NCBI GenBank assembly: GCA_021812735.1
Contig: JAKAMV010000328.1
Location: 1-9,348, forward strand
Direction of reading: 5' to 3'
Length of the DNA: 9,348 bases
DNA from: Chloroflexota bacterium
GTDB taxonomy: Bacteria; Chloroflexota; Limnocylindria; Limnocylindrales; CSP1-4
The position numbers and the translations under genes are program-made. Within the stretch, counting starts at the first letter, position 1; every line of letters begins with the position of its first letter. This document shows, one piece after another, positions 1 through 9,348 of this stretch. The notes under the pieces are model-generated. The model made no database searches, was not told the origin of the DNA, and worked only from the letters and a program-made list of their open reading frames with translations.

Positions 1-170
1 CCCGCCGCGACGACACGGACGTCGGGCGCCTGCTCGCGCGCCATCTGCAGCGCCATCTCGACGATCCCCTCCGCCACGCGCGCCGAGTGTGACGCCACGA
101 CCACCCCGACGAGCGGCCGGCGCTCCCCGCTCGCCCCGCCACTTGCCGCCCCGCCTGCGATGCTGCTCAC
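1..170 (-). CDS. dhaM: DhaM, PTS-type phosphotransfer subunit of DHA kinase (partial, N-terminus only)
   Basis: The N-terminal 56 codons of a DhaM (EIIA-Man fold) protein are visible; the rest lies beyond the left edge. In this family DhaM takes phosphate from HPr of the PTS on a histidine and passes it to ADP bound in DhaL. The segment VGVVVASHSARVAEGIVEMA matches the family start, with the phosphorylatable His in ASHS. The start is taken as GTG at 170-168, which overlaps the TGA stop of the upstream cytochrome b gene in a GTGA tetranucleotide. No other start codon lies between it and the conserved strand. The choice leaves an unusual Gly/Ser/Ala-rich leader of about 19 residues. It is the last visible gene of the glpF-dhaK-dhaL-glpK-glpA-sdhBCD-like run and supplies the phosphodonor for the DhaK/DhaL encoded earlier in it. 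Domains beyond EIIA cannot be judged. Confidence 0.85.
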   Translation of the reverse strand, partial: MSSIAGGAASGGASGERRPLVGVVVASHSARVAEGIVEMALQMAREQAPDVRVVAA

Positions 171-589
171 GGGTGCGTCACCAAGATGGCCAGGAGTGTC
201 AGGCCGTAGAGGACCGTCACGACCCAGACGCCCAGGAGGACGCGCGTCACGATCCGTTCGGCGCGCACGCTCAGCCCGAAGTCGAAGATGACGGCTCGCA
301 GCCCGAGCAGCCCGTGCCAGCTGACCACGACCAAGAAGAGCGTCTCGAGCGGCAAGATGACGGGGTTCGTGATGTAGGCGATCACCTCCTGGTAATCGCG
401 CAGCCCACCCTTGACCACGAAGTGGTTGGCGATCATGTGGAGCGACACGAGGACCAACACCAGCGCCCCGGTGACGGCCTGCCACCCCCAGCCCACGCCG
501 GGCAGCGTGTCCCGCTCCTCGGGCGCCCACCGCACGGGCCGTTCCCCGGGCGCCGACAGAGCCCCAGATTCGTCCGCTCGTCCGGCCAT
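167..589 (-). CDS. SdhD-like cytochrome b membrane anchor of a predicted glycerol-3-phosphate:quinone oxidoreductase
   Basis: A 140-residue membrane protein with three predicted hydrophobic helices, roughly residues 37-58, 76-96 and 114-136, after a hydrophilic N-terminus. Its pattern resembles SdhD of complex II: His51 and His56 in or after helix 1, and a WHGLLGLR signature at 91-98 in helix 2 that is typical of heme-b ligating anchors. In the known family such anchors bind heme b and quinone and hold the iron-sulfur subunit at the membrane. ATG at 589-587 overlaps the sdhC-like stop as TGATG; GTG at 592-590 is the alternative. It follows the sdhC-like gene and is coupled to dhaM downstream. 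No SdhA is encoded here; the only flavoprotein gene is glpA-like, so its job is inferred to be anchoring that enzyme. Confidence 0.8.
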   Translation of the reverse strand: MAGRADESGALSAPGERPVRWAPEERDTLPGVGWGWQAVTGALVLVLVSLHMIANHFVVKGGLRDYQEVIAYITNPVILPLETLFLVVVSWHGLLGLRAVIFDFGLSVRAERIVTRVLLGVWVVTVLYGLTLLAILVTHP

Positions 590-1017
590 CACTTCGCCCC
601 CACGTCACTCAGGAACCGCAACGCGCCGATCAGCAGCACGATCACGCCGACCGTGCCGAACGCCAAGAGGAGCGCCTTCTGGCGGCTGACGACCAACCCG
701 AACTCCACGAGGGTCAGGCGGATGCCGTTCAGCCCATGGATCAGCAACCCTGCAAGGAGCACGACATCTAGGACCAGGAAGATCGGGTTCAGGAACCAGT
801 TCAGCAAGGCGTTCCATGAGCTCGGGCCAGCCGCGAGCTGCGAGAGCACGATCAGGTGCAGGTACAGGTAGAAGAGGACGCCCAGCCCGGTGACGCGGTT
901 GAGGATGAAGGCCCAGCCACCCAGGCGGCGCCCACGGACGTCGAGCCAGCCGAGGAAGCCACGGCGGCGGCCACGAGGAGGGGCCTGCCGCTCGGGGGTG
1001 ACGGCGCGCTCGCTCAT
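589..1017 (-). CDS. SdhC-like cytochrome b subunit of a predicted glycerol-3-phosphate:quinone oxidoreductase
   Basis: A 142-residue protein with a basic N-terminus (RGRRRG near 16-20) and three hydrophobic helices at about 36-60, 78-98 and 114-135. The RVTGLGVLFYLYLH stretch (41-54) and IHGLNGIR (93-100) match the SdhC/cytochrome b556 family; His54 and His94 are plausible heme axial ligands. Two separate anchors with His in both suggest a two-heme (type A-like) arrangement, which is an inference. ATG at 1017-1015 lies 10 nt after the stop of the iron-sulfur gene, with GAGG about 8 nt upstream of it. Its stop overlaps the next start. In known complex II enzymes this subunit forms part of the quinone site and carries electrons from SdhB into the membrane pool. 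Confidence 0.82.
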   Translation of the reverse strand: MSERAVTPERQAPPRGRRRGFLGWLDVRGRRLGGWAFILNRVTGLGVLFYLYLHLIVLSQLAAGPSSWNALLNWFLNPIFLVLDVVLLAGLLIHGLNGIRLTLVEFGLVVSRQKALLLAFGTVGVIVLLIGALRFLSDVGAK

Positions 1018-1027
1018 TGGAGCACCC

Positions 1028-1762
1028 TCATCGCCCGACCTCCACCCGCGGCGCGAAGAGGCGCCGCAGCCGACCTCCGATCAGCGCGCGGCGCAGCTGC
1101 ATGATGTGCCCGGCCGGATCCACGTTCGAGGGGCACGCTTCTGTGCATTCGAACGCGGCATGGCAGCGCCACACGCCATGCGGGTCGTCTGCCAGGCTGA
1201 GCACGAACGGCAGATCGCGGCCACGCGGCTCCTCACGCACCCGGTCGGCCGCGGCGAGCGCCGCCGGACCCAGGTAGTCGGGATCGGTGCCCGCGATGGG
1301 GCAGACCGAGACGCAGATGCCGCACTCGATGCAGTCCTCGTATCGCAGGGCCCGCTCCACGCCCGGCGCACGCTGTGCCCCGGGCACGAGCTCGCTCTCG
1401 CGGACCAGTGGACGGTCGATCGCGTTGTACCGCGCGAAGAAGGGCGCCATCTCCACGACCAGGTCGCTGACGAGCGGCGCGTTCTCCAACGGTTCGACCA
1501 CCACCTCGGCGGTGCCGAGCTCGCGGACATTCGTCACGCACGCCAGCACCTCCCGGCCGTTCACCTTCATCGCGCAGGTCCCGCACGACGCGTGGAAGCA
1601 CGAGTGGCGGAGCGTGAGGCTGGGGTCCTGGGTGCGCCGGATGGCCGTCAACGCGTCGAGCACCGTGGTGCGCGGCTCGGTCTCGACCTGGAACGTGTCT
1701 TGGTGGGGTGCCGCGTCGCCCTGCTTGTAGCGGTGGACGCGGAACGTGACGGTCTCGCCCAT
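1028..1762 (-). CDS. SdhB/FrdB-type iron-sulfur subunit
   Basis: A 244-residue electron-transfer protein with the full complex II cysteine set. Cys55, 60, 63 and 75 (C-x4-C-x2-C-x11-C) form the N-terminal ferredoxin-type [2Fe-2S] site. Cys144, 147, 150 and 154 (CIECGICVSVCP) and Cys200, 206 and 210 (CHAAFECTEACP) supply the C-terminal sites. By family analogy Cys144/147/150/210 bind [4Fe-4S] and Cys154/200/206 bind [3Fe-4S]. His201 matches the quinone-site His of E. coli SdhB, while the quinone-site Trp of that enzyme is replaced by Thr159 in an alignment by eye. The gene starts 3 nt after the glpA-like stop and is followed by two cytochrome b anchors. It should relay electrons from the flavoprotein to heme and quinone. 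It resembles standard SdhB enough that genome context, not sequence, argues for the glycerol-3-phosphate role. Confidence 0.9.
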   Translation of the reverse strand: MGETVTFRVHRYKQGDAAPHQDTFQVETEPRTTVLDALTAIRRTQDPSLTLRHSCFHASCGTCAMKVNGREVLACVTNVRELGTAEVVVEPLENAPLVSDLVVEMAPFFARYNAIDRPLVRESELVPGAQRAPGVERALRYEDCIECGICVSVCPIAGTDPDYLGPAALAAADRVREEPRGRDLPFVLSLADDPHGVWRCHAAFECTEACPSNVDPAGHIMQLRRALIGGRLRRLFAPRVEVGR

Positions 1763-1765
1763 CGG

Positions 1766-2950
1766 CTACGCGGTGTAGTAGGCCGTGTGTGGCAGCAGCA
1801 CGGTGTCGCGCGTCCGGCAGGGCGCATCGACCCCCAGCTTGCGGCAGACGACGTCCGCCGTCGTCTCCGCCATCGCCCGCGCCGTCGTCCCCTTGCCGCC
1901 GGAAATGGTGACGAAGCCCTCCACGCCGTCGCGCTCCATGTGGTCGAAGCACTTGAACGTGCGGCTCAGCTCCCGTCCGGTCGCCGCGCCGCGCGATCCG
2001 ATCAGCGGGCGGGCCGCCGACCACGCCTGGCGGAACGGCGCCGAGCGGACCGCCGGGATCAGCTTGGCCCCTTCTTCGTACATCTTCTGCACGTGGTCCT
2101 CCGGGACGCCCAGGTCGTCCGGGTCGTCGACGATCCACGAGCTCGTGCCGACGATCGAGAGCGCGCGTTGCGGCACGACGATGTCACCGTCGCCGGATTT
2201 GTGCATGCGGTTGATGACCATGTTGCAGAAGCGGCCACGCAGCGCGAGCAAGACGCCCGGCGAGGGCTGGATCGGGACGTCCACCCCGGCCATCGCGGCC
2301 ACCTTCTCGGCCCACGGCCCGCTGGCGTTCACGACGATATCCGCACTGATCTCGAAATCGCGTTCCGTGCGATGGTCCCGCCCCCGCACGCCGGTCACGC
2401 ACTTGTCATGCACGATCAGGCTCGTCACCTCGCAGAACGGCTGGATCAGCGCGCCGTGTGCCTTGGCGGTGGCGAACCAGCGCAACGGCAGGCGCATCGC
2501 ATCGAACGTCGCGTCCGGGACCTGGATGGCGCCCTTCAGCGCGGCGTTCAGGTTCGGTTCGAGGCGCAGCGCCTCGGCCGCCGACAGCCAGCGGGCGGGG
2601 ATCCCGGTCTCGCCGCAGGCCGCGAAGAGTTTCTCGCCGTAGGCCATGTCCTCGTCGTCGAGACCGACGAAGAGCCCGTCGTTCTCCTCGAACGAGCCGG
2701 GCGCCACACGACGCAGCAGCTGGTTCTCCTGGATGCATTCGGCCGCGGACTCGGGGTCGTTCACAGCATAGCGGGCGCCGCTGTGGAGCAGGCCATGGTG
2801 CCGGCCCGTGGTCCCGGACGTGATCTCGCCGCGTTCGACGAGCGTGACCCGGAGCCCCCGGAGGGCCAGATCGAGGGCCAGCGCCCCGCCCGTGCCGCCC
2901 CCGCCGACGATGACGACGTGCGGCGCGGGCGAGCGATGGACGACGGTCAT
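1766..2950 (-). CDS. glpA: GlpA-type FAD glycerol-3-phosphate dehydrogenase, short form without the C-terminal [2Fe-2S] domain
   Basis: A 394-residue DAO-family flavoprotein that would oxidise sn-glycerol-3-phosphate to dihydroxyacetone phosphate. The FAD dinucleotide motif GGGGTGG is at 16-22 with the ribose-binding Glu39 in TLVERGE. The GlpA signature SGTTGRHHGLLHSGARYAV is at 45-63, a second FAD contact VNASGPWA is near 207-214, and the closing VTISGGKGTTARAMAE is at 347-361. From memory, E. coli GlpA is about 540 residues and ends in a Cys-rich BFD-like [2Fe-2S] domain; this protein stops just after the flavin domain and lacks that part. It follows glpK by 49 nt, with GGAG 7 nt before the ATG. 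An SdhB-type gene begins 3 nt after its stop, so its electron acceptor is predicted to be the SdhB/C/D-like set rather than GlpB/GlpC. Specificity for another 2-hydroxyacid or polyol phosphate is less likely beside glpK. Confidence 0.88.
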   Translation of the reverse strand: MTVVHRSPAPHVVIVGGGGTGGALALDLALRGLRVTLVERGEITSGTTGRHHGLLHSGARYAVNDPESAAECIQENQLLRRVAPGSFEENDGLFVGLDDEDMAYGEKLFAACGETGIPARWLSAAEALRLEPNLNAALKGAIQVPDATFDAMRLPLRWFATAKAHGALIQPFCEVTSLIVHDKCVTGVRGRDHRTERDFEISADIVVNASGPWAEKVAAMAGVDVPIQPSPGVLLALRGRFCNMVINRMHKSGDGDIVVPQRALSIVGTSSWIVDDPDDLGVPEDHVQKMYEEGAKLIPAVRSAPFRQAWSAARPLIGSRGAATGRELSRTFKCFDHMERDGVEGFVTISGGKGTTARAMAETTADVVCRKLGVDAPCRTRDTVLLPHTAYYTA

Positions 2951-2999: not shown

Positions 3000-4502
3000 T
3001 CAGTGGTTCTCGACCCAGTCGAAGGTCCGCGTCACGGCCTTCTTCCAGAACTTGTACTCCTTCTCGCGGGTGGCCGCATCGAGCTGCGGGTGCCACTCCT
3101 TGTCCTTGGCCCAGTTGGCGCGCAGATCCTCGACCGCCTTCCAGAAGCCGACCGCCAGGCCGGCTGCGTAGGCAGCGCCGAGCGCCGTCGTCTCGGCCAC
3201 CTTCGGGCGGATGACCGGGACGGCAAGGACGTCGGACTGGAACTGCATCAGCAGCTCGTTGTAGACCATGCCGCCGTCGACCTTGAGGGCCGTCAGCGCG
3301 ACGCCGGAGTCGGCGTTCATCGCGTCGAGCACCTCACGGGTCTGCCAAGCCGTCGCCTCGAGGACGGCACGCGCGATGTGACCCTTGTTCACGTAGCGGG
3401 TGAGGCCGGCGATGACGCCGCGGGCGTCGTTCTTCCAGTACGGCGCGAACAGCCCGGAGAACGCCGGGACGAAGTAGACGCCGCCGTTGTCGTCGACGGT
3501 GCGGGCCAGATCCTCGATCTCCGGTGAGGTCTTGATCATGCCCAGGTTGTCGCGCAGCCACTGCACGAGCGCACCAGTGATCGCGATCGAGCCCTCGAGC
3601 GCGTAGACCGCGGGCTGGTCGCCGATCTTGTAGCCGAGCGTGGTGAGCAGGCCGCTCTTGGACGGCACCGGCTTGGTGCCGGTGTTGAGGAGCATGAAGC
3701 AGCCCGTGCCGTACGTGTTCTTCGCCTCGCCGGCGGAGAAGCACGTCTGGCCGAAGAGCGCCGCCTGCTGGTCGCCGAGGTCGCCGGCGACCGGGACGCC
3801 GGCGAGGTCGCCGGTGGCCTTGCCGTAGACCTCGCTGGAGGCCTTGATGGCCGGCAGCATCGCGCGCGGGATGCCCATCAGCTTCAGGATCTCGGGATCC
3901 CAGTCGAGGGTCGCGAGGTTCATCAGCATGGTGCGGCTGGCGTTCGTGACATCCGTCACGTGGACGCCGCCCGACGGGCCGCCGGTCAGGTTCCAGATGC
4001 ACCAGGTGTCGATGTTGCCGAAGAGCAATTCCCCGGCCTCGGCCTTGGCACGCGCACCCTCGACGTTGTCGAGGATCCACTTGATCTTCGGACCGGAGAA
4101 GTAGGTCGCCAGCGGCAGGCCGACCTTGGGCCGGAGCCGATCCTGGCCACCGTCCTTCGCCAGCTCGTTGCAGATGTCGGCCGTCCGGGTGTCCTGCCAG
4201 ACGATCGCGTTGTGGATCGGCTTGCCCGTGCGGCGATCCCAGACCACCGTGGTCTCGCGCTGGTTGGTGACGCCCACGGCGGCCAGATCGGCCGCGCTGA
4301 CGCCGGCCTTGGCCAGGGCACCGCGGATGACCTCGACGCTGCGGTTCCAGATCTCGAGCGGATCGTGCTCCACCCAGCCGGGCTTCGGGTAGATCTGCTC
4401 GTGTTCTTTCTGATCGATCGCGACGACGGCGCCGGCGTGATCGAAGATCATGAAGCGGGTGCTGGTCGTGCCCTGATCGAGGGCGCCGACGTATCTCGCC
4501 AT
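3000..4502 (-). CDS. glpK: Glycerol kinase
   Basis: A full-length 500-residue FGGY-family kinase that phosphorylates glycerol with ATP to sn-glycerol-3-phosphate in the cytoplasm. Visible family features are the N-terminal phosphate loop [11 protein letters not shown] (6-16), TNQRET (79-84, Arg82/Glu83 contacting glycerol), Tyr134 in ATYFSG, catalytic Asp244 in [10 protein letters not shown], and [11 protein letters not shown] (261-271). ATG at 4502-4500 has a GGGAGG Shine-Dalgarno sequence at 4513-4508, 5 nt upstream. It sits between dhaL and the glpA-like gene, so its product is oxidised by the next protein encoded. The loop where Firmicutes GlpK carries a histidine phosphorylated by HPr reads ASSEVYG (221-227) and has no His, so PTS control by that mechanism is not expected. 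Confidence 0.97.
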
Positions 4503-4545: not shown

Positions 4546-5211
4546 CTAGTTGGCCGTTCCTCCGGCCGCACCCGACCAGGCGTCGGCGGCGGCCTTCAGC
4601 AGCAGGTACGAAGAGGTCGCGCCCGGGTCCTGGTGCCCGGCGCTTCGCTCTCCGAGGTAGCTCGCCCGACCTTTGCGGGCGACGAGCGGGATGGTCGCGA
4701 GCATCCCCTGCTCGGCCGCAGCGACCGCACGGGCCAATGCGTCCTGCAGGGAGGCCCCCGATGCGGCGGCCTCCCGCAGGGCGTCCCGGGCCGGCAGCAG
4801 CGTGTCGAGCATGGTCTTGTCGCCCGGCTCCGCCTTGCCGATCCGCTGAACCCCAGCGACTCCGGCGTCGAGCGCCGCGATGAGATCGTCGAGGCCGATG
4901 GCCTCGCGGCCGGCCGTGGCGGTGCCGAGCTGCAGAAAGAACGTGCCGTAGAGCGGGCCGCTCGCCCCGCCGACCGTCGAGACCAGCGTCATCCCCACCG
5001 TCTTGAACGCCGCGCCGATGTCGCGGTTGGGCAGGCCCGGGAGTTTCCCGATCACGGCCTGGAAGCCCCGGTCCATGTTGATGCCGTGGTCGGCATCGCC
5101 GATCGCGGAGTCGAGCTCGGTGAGGTACTCCTTCTGGTCCCTGACGGATGCGGCGAACGTGTTGATCCAAGCGATCACGTCGTCATACGTGATCGGCGTC
5201 GACCCGCTCAT
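4546..5211 (-). CDS. dhaL: DhaL, ADP-binding subunit of PTS-dependent dihydroxyacetone kinase
   Basis: A 221-residue helical-barrel protein that holds ADP/ATP and transfers the phosphate received from DhaM to DHA on DhaK. The Mg-nucleotide triad is Asp34, Asp39 and Asp41 in LDSAIGDADHGIN. The glycine loop GGASGPLYGT is at 81-90, GDKTMLDTLLP lies mid-protein, and RKGRASYLGERSAGHQDPG is near the C-terminus. The GDADHG form is the one found in E. coli PTS-type DhaL. Length matches the family (about 210 residues). ATG at 5211 follows the dhaK stop by 52 nt. A purine-rich AAGGGAAGG lies about 12 nt upstream, so initiation may lean on coupling from dhaK. glpK follows after 43 nt. This is the copy paired with dhaK and the tail-end dhaM. 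Confidence 0.95.
   Translation of the reverse strand: MSGSTPITYDDVIAWINTFAASVRDQKEYLTELDSAIGDADHGINMDRGFQAVIGKLPGLPNRDIGAAFKTVGMTLVSTVGGASGPLYGTFFLQLGTATAGREAIGLDDLIAALDAGVAGVQRIGKAEPGDKTMLDTLLPARDALREAAASGASLQDALARAVAAAEQGMLATIPLVARKGRASYLGERSAGHQDPGATSSYLLLKAAADAWSGAAGGTAN

Positions 5212-5263: not shown

Positions 5264-5270
<7 letters not shown>
5249..5270. repeat. Imperfect 22-bp palindrome over the dhaK stop codon
   Basis: GACCGCGCGGTC at 5254-5265 is a perfect 12-bp palindrome flanked by CGTC and GACG after one mismatched base on each side. It covers the dhaK TGA (5264-5266) and the start of the dhaK-dhaL spacer. In RNA it could form a short stem near the stop codon; no U tract follows. 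A role in mRNA stability or coupling is a guess. Confidence 0.45.
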
Positions 5271-6262
<992 letters not shown>

Positions 6263-6374: not shown

Positions 6375-7124
6375 TCAGTGCGCGATCGCCTTCAGGATGT
6401 AGTCAGTGAACACCCACTGGTACACCACGGCGGCGAGGGCGCCGCCGATGAGCGGGCCGACCACCGGTACCCACGAGTAGGCCCAGTCCGAATCACGCTT
6501 GCCCGGGATGGGCAGGATGAAGTGGGCGATGCGCGGACCGAGGTCGCGGGCGGGGTTGATGGCGTACCCGGTCGTACCGCCGAGCGAGAGGCCGATCACC
6601 CAGACCAACAGTGCGACGGGCAGCGCGCCCAATGACGCCAGTCCAGAGCCACTGCCGTTGTGGCCGAACGAGAAGATCACGAACAGCAGCACGAAGGTGC
6701 CGATGATCTCCGAGATCAGGTTCAGGGGGTAGTTGCGGATGTTCGGGGCGGTGCTGAAGACCGCCAGCTTGAGGTTGGCGTCCTCAGTGGCCTTGAAGTG
6801 ATCCCAGTAATGGAGCGCCACCAGGCAGGCGCCGATGAACGCGCCGATCATCTGCCCGAGCCAGTAGCCGGGCACGGCGCTCCACGGAATGCCACCGTTG
6901 ATCGCGACCGCGAGCGTCACCGCGGGGTTGATATGGGCACCGCTGATCGGTCCGGCGACGACGACGCCGGCGAAGACGGCCAAGGCCCATGCCGTGGTGA
7001 TCACGATCCAGCCGGAGTTCTGGGCCTTGGACTTGGTGAGCAGGACTGCGGCGACCACGCCGTCGCCGAGGAGGATCAGCATCCCTGTGCCAAAGATCTC
7101 GGCGAGGAACTTCTCAGCTGTCAT
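6375..7124 (-). CDS. glpF: Glycerol uptake facilitator (aquaglyceroporin)
   Basis: A 249-residue inner-membrane channel of the MIP family that lets glycerol diffuse in, where GlpK traps it. Both pore half-helix motifs are present: HINPAVTLA with NPA at 66-68 and AINPARDLGPR with NPA at 190-192. Arg193 and the Asp194 that usually marks glycerol-conducting members follow the second motif. Six hydrophobic segments plus the two half-helices fit the family; it is somewhat shorter than E. coli GlpF. ATG at 7124 has AGGGAG about 10 nt upstream. It is the first gene of the main minus-strand run, after a 413-nt gap that probably holds the promoter, and dhaK follows it. Transport of DHA as well as glycerol would fit the locus but cannot be read from sequence. 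Confidence 0.95.
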   Translation of the reverse strand: MTAEKFLAEIFGTGMLILLGDGVVAAVLLTKSKAQNSGWIVITTAWALAVFAGVVVAGPISGAHINPAVTLAVAINGGIPWSAVPGYWLGQMIGAFIGACLVALHYWDHFKATEDANLKLAVFSTAPNIRNYPLNLISEIIGTFVLLFVIFSFGHNGSGSGLASLGALPVALLVWVIGLSLGGTTGYAINPARDLGPRIAHFILPIPGKRDSDWAYSWVPVVGPLIGGALAAVVYQWVFTDYILKAIAH

Positions 7125-7502: not shown

Positions 7503-7559
7503 GCCGGCGGAGGCGCGCTGAGCCGGCGGAGACGCGTTCAGCCGGCGGAGACGCGTTCA
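7503..7559. repeat. Three tandem 19-nt repeats across the dhaL2 stop codon
   Basis: GCCGGCGGAGACGCGTTCA is present twice in perfect tandem (7522-7540 and 7541-7559), and a diverged third copy at 7503-7521 differs at three positions. The unit is not a multiple of three, so each copy shifts the frame. The innermost copy encodes the last residues of dhaL2 and the next supplies its TGA stop. Confidence 0.9.
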
Positions 7560-8206
7560 GCCGCCGGGCACGTCTCGGCGAGCGCGCGGACGAGCAGGGC
7601 GCTCGACGCGGCGCCGGGGTCGAGGTGGCCGGCCGATCGCTCGCCCAGGTAGCTCGCGCGTCCTCGCCGTGCGACGAGCGGCCGCGTCGCCTCCAGCCCG
7701 GCCTCGGCGGCCTGTGCGGCGCGCGCCAGGGCCTCGCCCAGGTTGGTTCCGGTGCCGGCCGACGCACGCAGGGCCCCCAGCGCCGGGACGAGCGCATCGA
7801 GCATCGTCTTGTCGCCAGGCCCCGAGCGCCCGAGCGCGGCGATCGCCTCGACGGCCGCCTCGAACGCACGGACGATGACCTCCAGCGGCAGGACCTCCCC
7901 GGCCCGCGCTTCCGGCTCCGGGATGGCGGCTCCAGCCCTGGCCAGCGCCCGTCCGTAGAGCGCCCCACTCGCGCCGCCGACCGAACCGAGCATCACGCGC
8001 CCGGCCTCGGCCAGCACGACGCCCGCGGGCAGGAGCTGCGCCTCCTGGGCGTCGAGCCGCGCCACCACCAGCCCGAAGCCCCGGTCGAGGTTGATGCCGT
8101 GGTCGCCGTCGCCGATCGCGGCGTCGAGCTCCGTGAGCCAGGTGCTTCGCTCGTGGACCACGGCGGCGCTCGCCCGCAGCCACGCCTGCGCCCACTGCGC
8201 GCTCAT
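7538..8206 (-). CDS. dhaL: Second DhaL-type subunit (DAK2 domain)
   Basis: A 222-residue DhaL paralog. The nucleotide-binding triad is Asp28, Asp33 and Asp35 in LDAAIGDGDHGIN, followed by VGGASGALYGRAL, GPGDKTMLDALVP and RRGRASYLGERSAGHLDPG, so it looks catalytically intact. The loop reads GDGDHG, unlike the GDADHG of the dhaK-linked copy, as in many DAK2 proteins. ATG at 8206-8204 (MSAQWAQ) fits the family start but has no clear Shine-Dalgarno; it overlaps as ATGA the stop of a 24-codon ORF that itself overlaps the dhaM2 stop. The C-terminal residues AERVSAG are encoded by a 19-nt repeat. It pairs with the DhaM just upstream, but no second DhaK is visible; it may share the DhaK at 5264-6262 or serve a kinase encoded elsewhere. 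Confidence 0.93.
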   Translation of the reverse strand: MSAQWAQAWLRASAAVVHERSTWLTELDAAIGDGDHGINLDRGFGLVVARLDAQEAQLLPAGVVLAEAGRVMLGSVGGASGALYGRALARAGAAIPEPEARAGEVLPLEVIVRAFEAAVEAIAALGRSGPGDKTMLDALVPALGALRASAGTGTNLGEALARAAQAAEAGLEATRPLVARRGRASYLGERSAGHLDPGAASSALLVRALAETCPAAERVSAG

Positions 8207-8277
8207 GCGTTGCGGCCGGTTGCCCGTCTGGCGGGCGGCGGGATCAGCGCGACGGTCGGGCCCGGGGGCGCCGTCAT
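8203..8277 (-). CDS. Possible 24-residue bridging peptide between dhaM2 and dhaL2
   Basis: An ATG at 8277-8275 overlaps the dhaM2 TGA (ATGA), and this frame ends in a TGA at 8205-8203 that overlaps the dhaL2 ATG (ATGA again). The peptide starts MTAPPGPTVALIPPP and is rich in Pro and Ala. It resembles no family I know. Two exact ATGA junctions suggest it serves to carry ribosomes from dhaM2 to dhaL2, which lacks an obvious Shine-Dalgarno; chance is a real alternative. Confidence 0.3.
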   Translation of the reverse strand: MTAPPGPTVALIPPPARRATGRNA

Positions 8278-8690
8278 GCCGCGTCGCCCTGCGGGAGTTT
8301 CGGGACACCCGCCGCGCCATCGGCGGCGCGCGCCACGTCATCCAATGGCGCGCCGGAGGCGGCCTCCACGGCCGCCAGCACGGCACCTTCCACGATCGGA
8401 CCTCCGCTCAGCCGCGTCAGCCGCCGCTCCTCGGCGGTCGCCTCCTCGAGCGCGATCTCCACCGCGAGCGCGGCGCTGCCGAGATCGATGAGGATGACGG
8501 CGCCGTCCCCAGCGCTTGCCGCGAGCACCTCGCGCAGCACGTCCAGCACTTTCGGTGCACTGGTCCCGAGCGCGCCGACCGCCGTGCCGCCAGCCTCGCC
8601 GACCGGCACCGCCGGGGCCGCCTGCGCGACCATGGCGCGGAGGCCTGCTAGGAGCACGGGGCTGTGAGCGACGAGGACCAGTCCGACCAC
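8274..8690 (-). CDS. dhaM: Second DhaM, EIIA-only phosphotransfer subunit
   Basis: A 138-residue DhaM consisting of the EIIA-Man-like domain alone. It begins VGLVLVAHSP, with the phosphorylatable His9 in the family position. It also shows the VILIDLGSAA strand-loop and the C-terminal PIVEGAVLAAVEAASG pattern. GTG at 8690-8688 is preferred as start: it has GGAGGA at 8699-8694 and places the protein start exactly where other DhaM proteins begin. ATG at 8729 would add 13 residues and has no Shine-Dalgarno. E. coli DhaM carries extra HPr and EI-like domains; this one does not, so it needs general PTS proteins, none of which are in the window. It is joined to dhaL2 downstream and faces a divergent dhaL-like gene across a short control region. 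Confidence 0.9.
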   Translation of the reverse strand: MVGLVLVAHSPVLLAGLRAMVAQAAPAVPVGEAGGTAVGALGTSAPKVLDVLREVLAASAGDGAVILIDLGSAALAVEIALEEATAEERRLTRLSGGPIVEGAVLAAVEAASGAPLDDVARAADGAAGVPKLPQGDAA

Positions 8691-8693
8691 GAC

Positions 8694-8699
8694 TCCTCC
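8694..8699 (-). promoter_or_regulatory. Shine-Dalgarno that sets the dhaM2 GTG start
   Basis: Minus-strand GGAGGA ends 3 nt before the GTG at 8690-8688 (4 nt counted from its GGAGG core). It decides the GTG over the ATG at 8729, whose upstream sequence is not purine-rich. Confidence 0.65.
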
Positions 8700-8756
8700 G
8701 AACGCGGCGGCGCGCCCCAAGCCGCCCATAGACGAGTGTCGCCGGGGCGGAACGGG

Positions 8757-8775: not shown

Positions 8776-9348
8776 ATGAGCATAGACCGCGTCTCGGACC
8801 CAGTGCAGGCGCGCGAGCGGAGCACGGCACCGGCCGCGCGGCGGCGGCTTGCCACGACGCCAGGCGCCGCCCACGAGACACGCGTGCGGCCCGCGCTCGA
8901 CCGGGGTGCCGTCACCGCGTACCTGGCGCGGGCGGCCCGCTCGTTGCGCCGCCACCGCGGGCTGCTCGACCGGCTCGACGCGTCGCTCGGCGACGGCGAC
9001 CATGGCGAGAACATGGCCACCGGGTTCGACGCGGTGCTGCAGGCGCTGGCGGAGGAGCCTGCCAGCGACCTGGGCGCGCTGCTGCGCAACGTGGGGCATG
9101 TCCTGGTCGCGCGGGTCGGCGGCGCCAGCGGTCCGCTCTACGGCACCGCCTTCATCGAGGCCGGGTTCACGGTCGGGAGCGTCGCCCATCTCGACCCGGC
9201 GGCGATCGCCGACGCCTTCGACGCCGCCGTGCGCGGTCTTTCCCGGCGGGGGCGCTGCGCCGTCGGCGACAAGACGATCCTCGACGCGCTGGCGCCCGCC
9301 GCGGGCGCCTTCCGCGCCGCCGTCGAAGCCGGCGAGTCCTTGGAGACC
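8776..9348 (+). CDS. Third DhaL-like protein (DAK2 domain), partial at the right edge
   Basis: An open plus-strand frame of 191 codons running off the window. It contains LDASLGDGDHGEN with Asp68, Asp73 and Asp75 matching the DhaL nucleotide triad, then ARVGGASGPLYGTAF and VGDKTILDALAPAAG, so the DAK2 fold is clear. The C-terminal RGRASYLGERS region lies beyond the edge. The ATG at 8776 directly follows a 19-bp inverted repeat and has no Shine-Dalgarno; with TACACT 10 nt upstream the mRNA could be leaderless. This start gives a 36-residue Arg/Ala-rich leader before the fold. GTG at 8884 would start near the usual family position and is the main alternative. It is divergent from dhaM2-dhaL2, so it may head another kinase operon. 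Confidence 0.85.
   Translation, partial: MSIDRVSDPVQARERSTAPAARRRLATTPGAAHETRVRPALDRGAVTAYLARAARSLRRHRGLLDRLDASLGDGDHGENMATGFDAVLQALAEEPASDLGALLRNVGHVLVARVGGASGPLYGTAFIEAGFTVGSVAHLDPAAIADAFDAAVRGLSRRGRCAVGDKTILDALAPAAGAFRAAVEAGESLET

Follow-up and report, generated by a model that had tools for sequence, protein, structure and literature searches.

A predicted GlpA-SdhBCD glycerol-3-phosphate:quinone oxidoreductase in Chloroflexota, pairing a GlpA-type flavoprotein with a complex II chassis

Why should iron-sulfur and cytochrome b genes of the succinate dehydrogenase (SDH) type, without sdhA, stand directly behind the glycerol-3-phosphate (G3P) dehydrogenase gene of a glycerol operon? The question is raised by a contig of a Chloroflexota bacterium (JAKAMV010000328.1, assembly GCA_021812735.1), of which the 9,348 nucleotides analysed are referred to here as the window. 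Four adjoining minus-strand genes are at issue: glpA (1766..2950; 394 amino acids), the short form of the FAD-dependent G3P dehydrogenase catalytic subunit; an sdhB-like gene (1028..1762; 244 amino acids) for an iron-sulfur subunit with predicted [2Fe-2S], [4Fe-4S], and [3Fe-4S] clusters; and two genes for cytochrome b anchors, sdhC-like (589..1017; 142 amino acids) and sdhD-like (167..589; 140 amino acids from its ATG). We consider it highly probable that these genes encode one membrane enzyme, GlpA-SdhBCD, functioning as a G3P:quinone (probably menaquinone) oxidoreductase. A sequence-only reading of the window had proposed such a GlpA flavoprotein on an SDH chassis, and conserved gene order, a separate SDH in related genomes, and a distinct SdhB clade now lend it support. 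The evidence read from the DNA comprises gene content and order, conservation, the SdhB clade, the missing GlpA tail, G3P-site residues, and the positions of Fe-S and heme ligands.

The flavoprotein was identified as GlpA by several measures, in agreement with the sequence-only reading, which had placed a GlpA-type protein after glpK. It matched TIGR03377 with 452.8 bits over model positions 1-378 of 530, thus not reaching the cut-off of 552.8, and it gave Pfam matches to DAO and other FAD-binding families. Its catalytic domain shares 46% identity with E. coli GlpA (361 positions aligned), and glpK lies upstream. Residues H56, R60, Y61, R314, R330, and K353 align with E. coli GlpD H50, R54, Y55, R317, R332, and K354, which we take to be the G3P-binding residues, and are kept in 49-50 of 50 hybrids (SdhB-linked GlpAs) and in all 33 GlpBC-type proteins; by DAO fold and G3P-site residues, the window protein is by sequence a member of the GlpA family. 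What distinguishes it from E. coli GlpABC is the absence of the BFD region and of any detected GlpB or GlpC, with SdhB, SdhC, and SdhD in their place. The window GlpA has no Pfam match to Fer2_BFD, a domain that was detected in both GlpABC-type GlpAs tested (E. coli GlpA and that of locus L072) and was absent from the five other tested GlpAs without GlpBC. The tail past the catalytic domain measures 8-18 residues in 50/50 SdhB-linked GlpAs, 122-196 residues in 33/33 GlpBC-linked GlpAs, and mostly 50-59 residues in archaeal GlpAs with neither partner.

The SdhB-like subunit matched TIGR00384 with 196 bits (cut-off 88) and, as had been claimed from the sequence, carries all 11 cluster cysteines (C55, C60, C63, C75, C144, C147, C150, C154, C200, C206, and C210), each of which is present in every alignment row reaching the position (42-46 of 48 rows each). 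The [2Fe-2S] ligands C55, C60, C63, and C75 (1538..1600, minus strand) begin in the motif RHSCFHASCGTC; the corresponding pattern C.H..CG.C occurs in 47/47 GlpA-linked SdhBs versus 10/79 SdhA-linked SdhBs. C144, C147, and C150 would bind the [4Fe-4S] cluster and C154 the [3Fe-4S] cluster (1301..1333, minus strand; 43/43 rows reaching the position), and C200 and C206 would bind the [3Fe-4S] and C210 the [4Fe-4S] cluster (1133..1165, minus strand; 42/42 rows), these ligand-to-cluster assignments being presumed from complex II structures and SdhB comparison; within the latter group, Ala203 occupies the place of a would-be fourth cysteine. A second difference between the two types of SdhB concerns tryptophan within six residues after CxxCxxCxxxC, where E. 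coli SdhB reads PSFWW: it is found in 42/79 SdhA-linked SdhBs versus 1/47 GlpA-linked SdhBs, being absent from the other 46. This absence would fit a quinone site distant from the classical proximal position, a situation comparable to that in the diheme complex II Sdh2 of M. smegmatis, in which the proximal site is blocked. Where the 120 SdhB relatives listed (P0001-P0120) carry source names, these read succinate dehydrogenase / fumarate reductase iron-sulfur subunit, and such names are probably misleading for the GlpA-linked members.

Both anchors scored above the Pfam Sdh_cyt cut-off (E 4.4e-13 for SdhC, 1.7e-11 for SdhD), each has three hydrophobic regions, and the HGxxGxR pattern previously noted is seen as HGLNGIR in SdhC and HGLLGLR in SdhD. 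SdhC histidines H54 (858-856) and H94 (738-736) are conserved in 36/36 rows, one of which is a misfiled SdhD, and in 34/34 rows after removal of near-duplicates and of that row. SdhD histidines H51 (439-437), H56, and H92 (316-314), numbered from the ATG (52, 57, and 93 if counted from a GTG), are conserved in 41/41 rows, or 33/33 without near-duplicates. According to the portions of PMC7447783 drawn on here, the two hemes of M. smegmatis Sdh2 are held by His C47/C87 and D65/D107, with spacings of 40 and 42; the spacings in the window are 40 in SdhC and 41 in SdhD, taking H51 rather than H56. As the four histidines are conserved and their spacings lie near those of Sdh2, the anchors are predicted to carry the four heme histidines of a diheme complex II, and hence two hemes b. 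The bis-histidine ligand pattern of complex II anchors is thus found in the window, as regards the ligand pattern only. The sequence-only reading had suggested one probable heme b; this gives way to what looks like a diheme arrangement.

Taken together, these subunits suggest the following route, in which complex formation, activity, electron path, hemes, quinone, and direction are all predictions. Glycerol would enter via GlpF and be phosphorylated to G3P by GlpK, and GlpA would oxidise G3P to dihydroxyacetone phosphate with FAD. From the FAD of GlpA, electrons would run along the three clusters of the SdhB-like subunit ([2Fe-2S], [4Fe-4S], and [3Fe-4S]) and then through two hemes b between SdhC and SdhD to the membrane quinone. 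SdhB would in this way take the place of the BFD [2Fe-2S] region that GlpA lacks, as well as that of GlpB and GlpC.

The order of the four genes is not peculiar to this contig. Genome contigs were scanned with the window GlpA, and the best 80 of 304 relatives, at 79 loci, were considered; among these, the top consists of short GlpAs, mostly adjoining sdhB, and the lower part of long GlpAs, mostly with glpB/glpC. For the sets of genomes surveyed next, phylum names are inferred. A GlpA match at E <= 1e-80 was obtained in 112 of 400 Chloroflexota genomes, with 74 above the model cut-off; 25 short-looking matches were taken, one of which adjoined glpB-glpC, and the remaining 24 comprise 16 followed by sdhB-C-D, 3 that continue with sdhB alone (two of them on contigs that stop 451 and 1165 bases past the GlpA match), 1 cut, and 4 with neither. 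Fifteen of 296 Actinomycetota genomes have a match at E <= 1e-90 (11 short, 3 with glpB-glpC, 1 cut), and 10 of the 11 short-GlpA loci continue with sdhB-C-D, the eleventh running off its contig. In the archaeal phylum that includes locus L041, 35 of 300 genomes have a match at E <= 1e-60; of the 30 loci covered (out of 37 match places), 6 show glpK-glpA-sdhB-sdhC-sdhD, 2 have glpB, and 22 neither, and the names found among relatives of one archaeal hybrid GlpA include Thermofilum and Infirmifilum. The recurrence of the glpA-sdhB-sdhC-sdhD order without sdhA, proposed earlier as a check, is therefore seen in Chloroflexota, Actinomycetota, and six archaeal genomes. Among 247 Spirochaetota genomes, 34 have a match, and the best 15 of these 34 divide into 6 with glpA-sdhB and no sdhC/D, as judged on locus DNA, and 9 with glpB.

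Several loci depart from these patterns. A glpB-glpC pair lies directly upstream of hybrid glpA-sdhB at L164 and L006, the full order at L164 being glpK-glpA-glpB-glpC-glpA(short)-sdhB-sdhC-sdhD, with glpABC in tandem with the hybrid. Two divergent full-length Chloroflexota GlpAs (L179, L180) have no GlpB/GlpC match in their locus DNA. A short glpA followed by sdhB, with no nearby sdhC/sdhD, is found at L022 (cut soon after sdhB), L023, L301, L031/L237, and L326-L331 (L328 being the locus of L031), and the Desulfobacterota-type and Spirochaetota loci appear to represent an anchor-free GlpA-SdhB form. In one Spirochaetota genome without sdhC/D at this place, glpA-sdhB is followed by a gene for a large DUF1538 membrane protein (L345:5479-7521), and at L169 a glycerol-3-phosphate acyltransferase gene (L169:2437-3369) lies downstream of a glpA-sdhB pair likewise without sdhC/D.

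Phylogenetic analysis separates the GlpA-linked SdhBs from those of ordinary SDH. After removal of sequences shorter than 190 residues and then of near-duplicates (180 reduced to 129), a tree inferred with IQ-TREE (LG+G4, 1000 ultrafast bootstrap (UFB) replicates) placed 47 GlpA-linked and 2 unlinked SdhBs apart from 79 SdhA-linked and 1 unlinked SdhB with UFB 99, E. coli SdhB and FrdB falling on the SdhA-linked side. With 17 more sequences, FastTree placed 53 GlpA-linked and 5 unlinked SdhBs on one side with support 0.999. In trees of GlpA (217 sequences reduced to 118, and thinned to 58 for the UFB tree), SdhB-linked and lone short bacterial GlpAs form one clade (0.979; UFB 100 in the 58-sequence tree), which adjoins archaeal GlpAs without SdhB, among them the one at L041, where a CoxG gene is adjacent. 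The two trees disagree on the placement of the archaeal hybrids: these group with an Anaerolineae set in the SdhB tree (UFB 100; deeper nodes 96-98) and are sister to the bacterial hybrids in the GlpA tree, where the bacterial clade has a UFB of only 72. GlpA and SdhB evolve together: their distances correlate with r 0.917, or 0.844 as a partial correlation after GlpK (n = 23; 0 of 2000 permutations reached r), as computed on the 23 pairs with a single GlpK among 41 non-redundant ones (from a total of 82). The genes are also under purifying selection, with ratios of nonsynonymous to synonymous substitution rates (dN/dS) of 0.09-0.32 for glpA, sdhB, sdhC, and sdhD against three close relatives (L002, L004, and L027), a fourth (L175) being too similar to be informative.

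A number of observations weigh against a four-subunit enzyme and should be set beside this evidence. Adjacent sdhC/D are missing from the glpA-sdhB pairs of six Spirochaetota loci, of three Desulfobacterota-type loci, and of L169; in three Thermoflexales-type genomes glpA and sdhB are separated, and C/D were found beside neither of them; and one genome that is 74% complete (G204) has a lone short GlpA and no SdhB match. Loss of the BFD region is not specific to SdhB linkage, because GlpAs without SdhB, such as the CoxG-linked one of L041, likewise lack it. The N-terminal ferredoxin domain of SdhB is the expected dock of the flavoprotein, yet divergence between GlpA-linked and SdhA-linked proteins is not concentrated there: the mean Jensen-Shannon divergence is 0.25 in the N domain and 0.38 in the C domain, and type-specific positions number 2 and 5, respectively, so that a clustering of SdhB changes in the flavoprotein-facing domain was not borne out. 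Diheme anchors would, moreover, not be expected here: G3P oxidation by menaquinone is downhill in itself, from about -190 mV to about -74 mV, and would therefore need no help from the membrane potential, unlike succinate:menaquinone reduction.

Could the short GlpA reduce quinone directly and alone, with SdhBCD as a membrane dock that takes no part in electron transfer? A precedent exists in the G3P dehydrogenase of S. acidocaldarius, which, in the portions of PMC11962113 drawn on here, lacks BFD cysteines and reduces quinones in vitro without its CoxG anchor, and some short GlpAs have no SdhB neighbour, the incomplete genome mentioned above (G204) giving no match to SdhB anywhere. Conservation nonetheless extends to all 11 Fe-S cysteines and to the heme histidines, which a mere dock would not require; SdhB is also kept where C/D, and with them the dock, are missing, in the Spirochaetota and Desulfobacterota-type loci. 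The 5 unlinked SdhBs of the hybrid clade are all from genomes in which the short GlpA either stands alone or sits at the edge of a contig: two lie at contig ends, with the short glpA also at a contig end (G432, G397), and three are in genomes with a lone short glpA (G068/G429, G288, G369), so that an SdhB of the hybrid clade, unlinked to glpA, is present in 3 of the 4 searched genomes with a lone GlpA. The dock explanation is therefore very unlikely. The split arrangement, with a lone short glpA and a distant lone GlpA-clade SdhB, characterizes one Thermoflexales-type family (L166/L365, L167/L236, and L171/L366).

A second alternative is that sdhBCD belongs to a further ordinary SDH or fumarate reductase whose SdhA is encoded elsewhere, its position after glpA being incidental. 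SdhB, SdhC, and SdhD are indeed clear complex II homologues, and SdhA exceeded its cut-off in 24 of 31 relatives and, among the genomes that supplied other hybrid or comparison loci, in 11 of 13. In the nearest genus, however, this SdhA has a different SdhB beside it. All 8 genomes have the GlpA-linked SdhB at 176-196 bits (in G007 GlpA is cut by a contig end), 7 of the 8 have a second SdhB at 246-271 bits, the eighth (G005) being 61% complete, and SdhA matches occur in 7 genomes, on the contig of this second, ordinary SdhB, with one extra match of 17.8 bits in G006. The separate canonical SDH that was to be looked for is thus present in 7/8 nearest-genus genomes and in the single-contig genome G235, which carries the two systems side by side, the ordinary SDH at 1.61 Mb and glpA-sdhBCD at 2.97 Mb. 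In the draft genome G430, a single SdhB, the GlpA-linked one, exceeds the cut-off, and SdhA stays below its own (the best match, a partial one, reached 275 bits); the glpA of this genome reads as two fragments. The GlpA-linked SdhBs form a separate clade, the gene order is conserved across phyla and both domains, and 50/50 of the compared SdhB-linked GlpAs lack an Fe-S region of their own. The opposite picture, in which sdhA has no other sdhBCD or the glp-linked SdhBs sit inside ordinary SDH clades, does not hold, and an orphan ordinary SDH was rejected as extremely unlikely. GlpC exceeded its cut-off in 1 of the 31 relatives (G018), which also has the sole over-cut-off GlpA among them.

That GlpA and SdhB form a soluble two-subunit module with a non-quinone acceptor and with SdhC/SdhD optional is suggested by the six Spirochaetota and three Desulfobacterota-type loci (one cut after sdhB), but is extremely improbable for the window, given that both anchors are present here, in 16/24 Chloroflexota loci, and in 10/11 Actinomycetota loci, with heme ligands conserved where aligned. 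Simpler explanations fell away: degraded genes were ruled out by the dN/dS values, chance adjacency by these together with the same order in many genomes, an RNA element by the lack of any Rfam match, and a simple promoter or terminator by the lack of a promoter-like site and by a single terminator-like site in no excess over shuffles.

The GlpA-SdhBCD reading, which we prefer, has a published counterpart. A GlpA-SdhBCD system was predicted for heat-loving archaea of the Thermofilum type by Schmerling et al. 2025 (Figs 8-9; PMC11962113, in the portions drawn on here), and the architecture of the window is the same, with glpA-sdhB-sdhC-sdhD in the same order and no sdhA. The sequence-only reading had taken this architecture to be unfamiliar as a characterised enzyme; it had been predicted in 2025, as just described, and no purified GlpA-SdhBCD enzyme was found in those portions of PMC11962113 or among the openly licensed papers listed in searches. 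Among the openly licensed PMC papers listed, the others looking unrelated by title, a system of this type was found only in PMC11962113, whose main text has no occurrence of 'chloroflex'. The window GlpA and SdhB are 51% and 41% identical, respectively, to the archaeal proteins compared, and bacterial and archaeal forms share a clade (GlpA UFB 100, SdhB UFB 99); the window system differs in being bacterial and in standing beside dhaK/dhaL/dhaM as well. What is new is the family in bacteria, the grouping of bacterial and archaeal members in one clade, the anchor-free GlpA-SdhB forms, and the diheme prediction. The 2025 archaeal prediction is hereby extended to Chloroflexota and Actinomycetota, while Spirochaetota and Desulfobacterota contain the anchor-free relatives. 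The same source states, in the portions drawn on here, that bacterial glpA consistently goes with glpBC, a statement that bacterial glpA-sdhBCD contradicts. An earlier paper from 2016 (PMC5059525, likewise in part) grouped some bacterial GlpA/GlpD sequences within an archaeal branch and proposed that these had been transferred from archaea.

Two further systems offer partial parallels. With diheme complex II (M. smegmatis Sdh2; PMC7447783, as above) the window shares the three-cluster SdhB ligands, two anchors of three hydrophobic regions, four heme histidines, and the SdhC spacing of 40; it differs in that the flavoprotein is a GlpA of the DAO family, not SdhA, in the separate clade of its SdhB, and in the tryptophan described earlier. 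With GlpA-CoxG of S. acidocaldarius (PMC11962113, as above) it shares a GlpA without BFD and a membrane partner other than GlpC. The CoxG-like anchor is not needed for electron transfer according to that source, and archaeal GlpAs without SdhB, including the CoxG-adjacent one of L041, fall outside the hybrid clade.

The phylogeny indicates that a dehydrogenase of another kind can be mounted on the SdhB/C/D chassis, and genes named as SDH iron-sulfur subunits may belong to glycerol metabolism; such annotation therefore affects how the presence of SDH and of the tricarboxylic acid cycle is read from draft genomes. A wider picture can be put forward tentatively, though taken as a whole it is somewhat improbable. 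Complex II would be a modular electron wire with an exchangeable flavoprotein, and the enzyme of the window a diheme, membrane-spanning G3P:menaquinone oxidoreductase whose quinone site lies close to the outer face, linking glycerol oxidation to the membrane potential in a manner not seen with GlpD or GlpABC; the family would have a single origin, with transfer between Bacteria and Archaea, and its anchor-free form would use another acceptor.

Within the window, the four genes belong to a tight glycerol operon, glpK-glpA-sdhB-sdhC-sdhD-(dhaM), on the minus strand. Profile searches place glpF, dhaK, dhaL, glpK, glpA, sdhB, sdhC, sdhD, and the start of a dhaM-like gene all on this strand: a glpF-like aquaglyceroporin gene of the MIP family (6375..7124; TIGR00861), dhaK (5264..6262; TIGR02363) and dhaL (4546..5211; TIGR02365) for dihydroxyacetone kinase subunits, glpK for glycerol kinase (3000..4502; 500 amino acids; TIGR01311, 753 bits), and, beyond sdhD, the dhaM-like start (1..170), which runs off the window and gave a weak TIGR02364 match (E 1.8e-5, below cut-off). 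The coordinates and junctions given by the sequence-only reading are correct. The TAG of glpA is followed by a 3-nt gap and the ATG of sdhB, the TGA of sdhB by a 10-nt gap and the ATG of sdhC, and sdhC and sdhD share a TGATG stop/start overlap; the sdhD start is most likely the ATG at 589 within this overlap, the alternative being a GTG at 592 that would give 141 amino acids. The end of sdhD overlaps the dhaM-like start by GTGA. In agreement with what had been stated, scans of window reading frames, ten with Pfam and ten with NCBIfam, found no SdhA, GlpB, or GlpC. The nearest genome compared (G001) shares 93% of the window's sampled words. Three frames in the window are of DhaL type (Dak2; 4546-5211 (-), 7538-8386 (-), and 8776-9348 (+)) and two pieces are DhaM-like (8274-8711 (-) and 1-170 (-), both under the DhaM cut-off), such that the dihydroxyacetone kinase set is duplicated around the glycerol operon.

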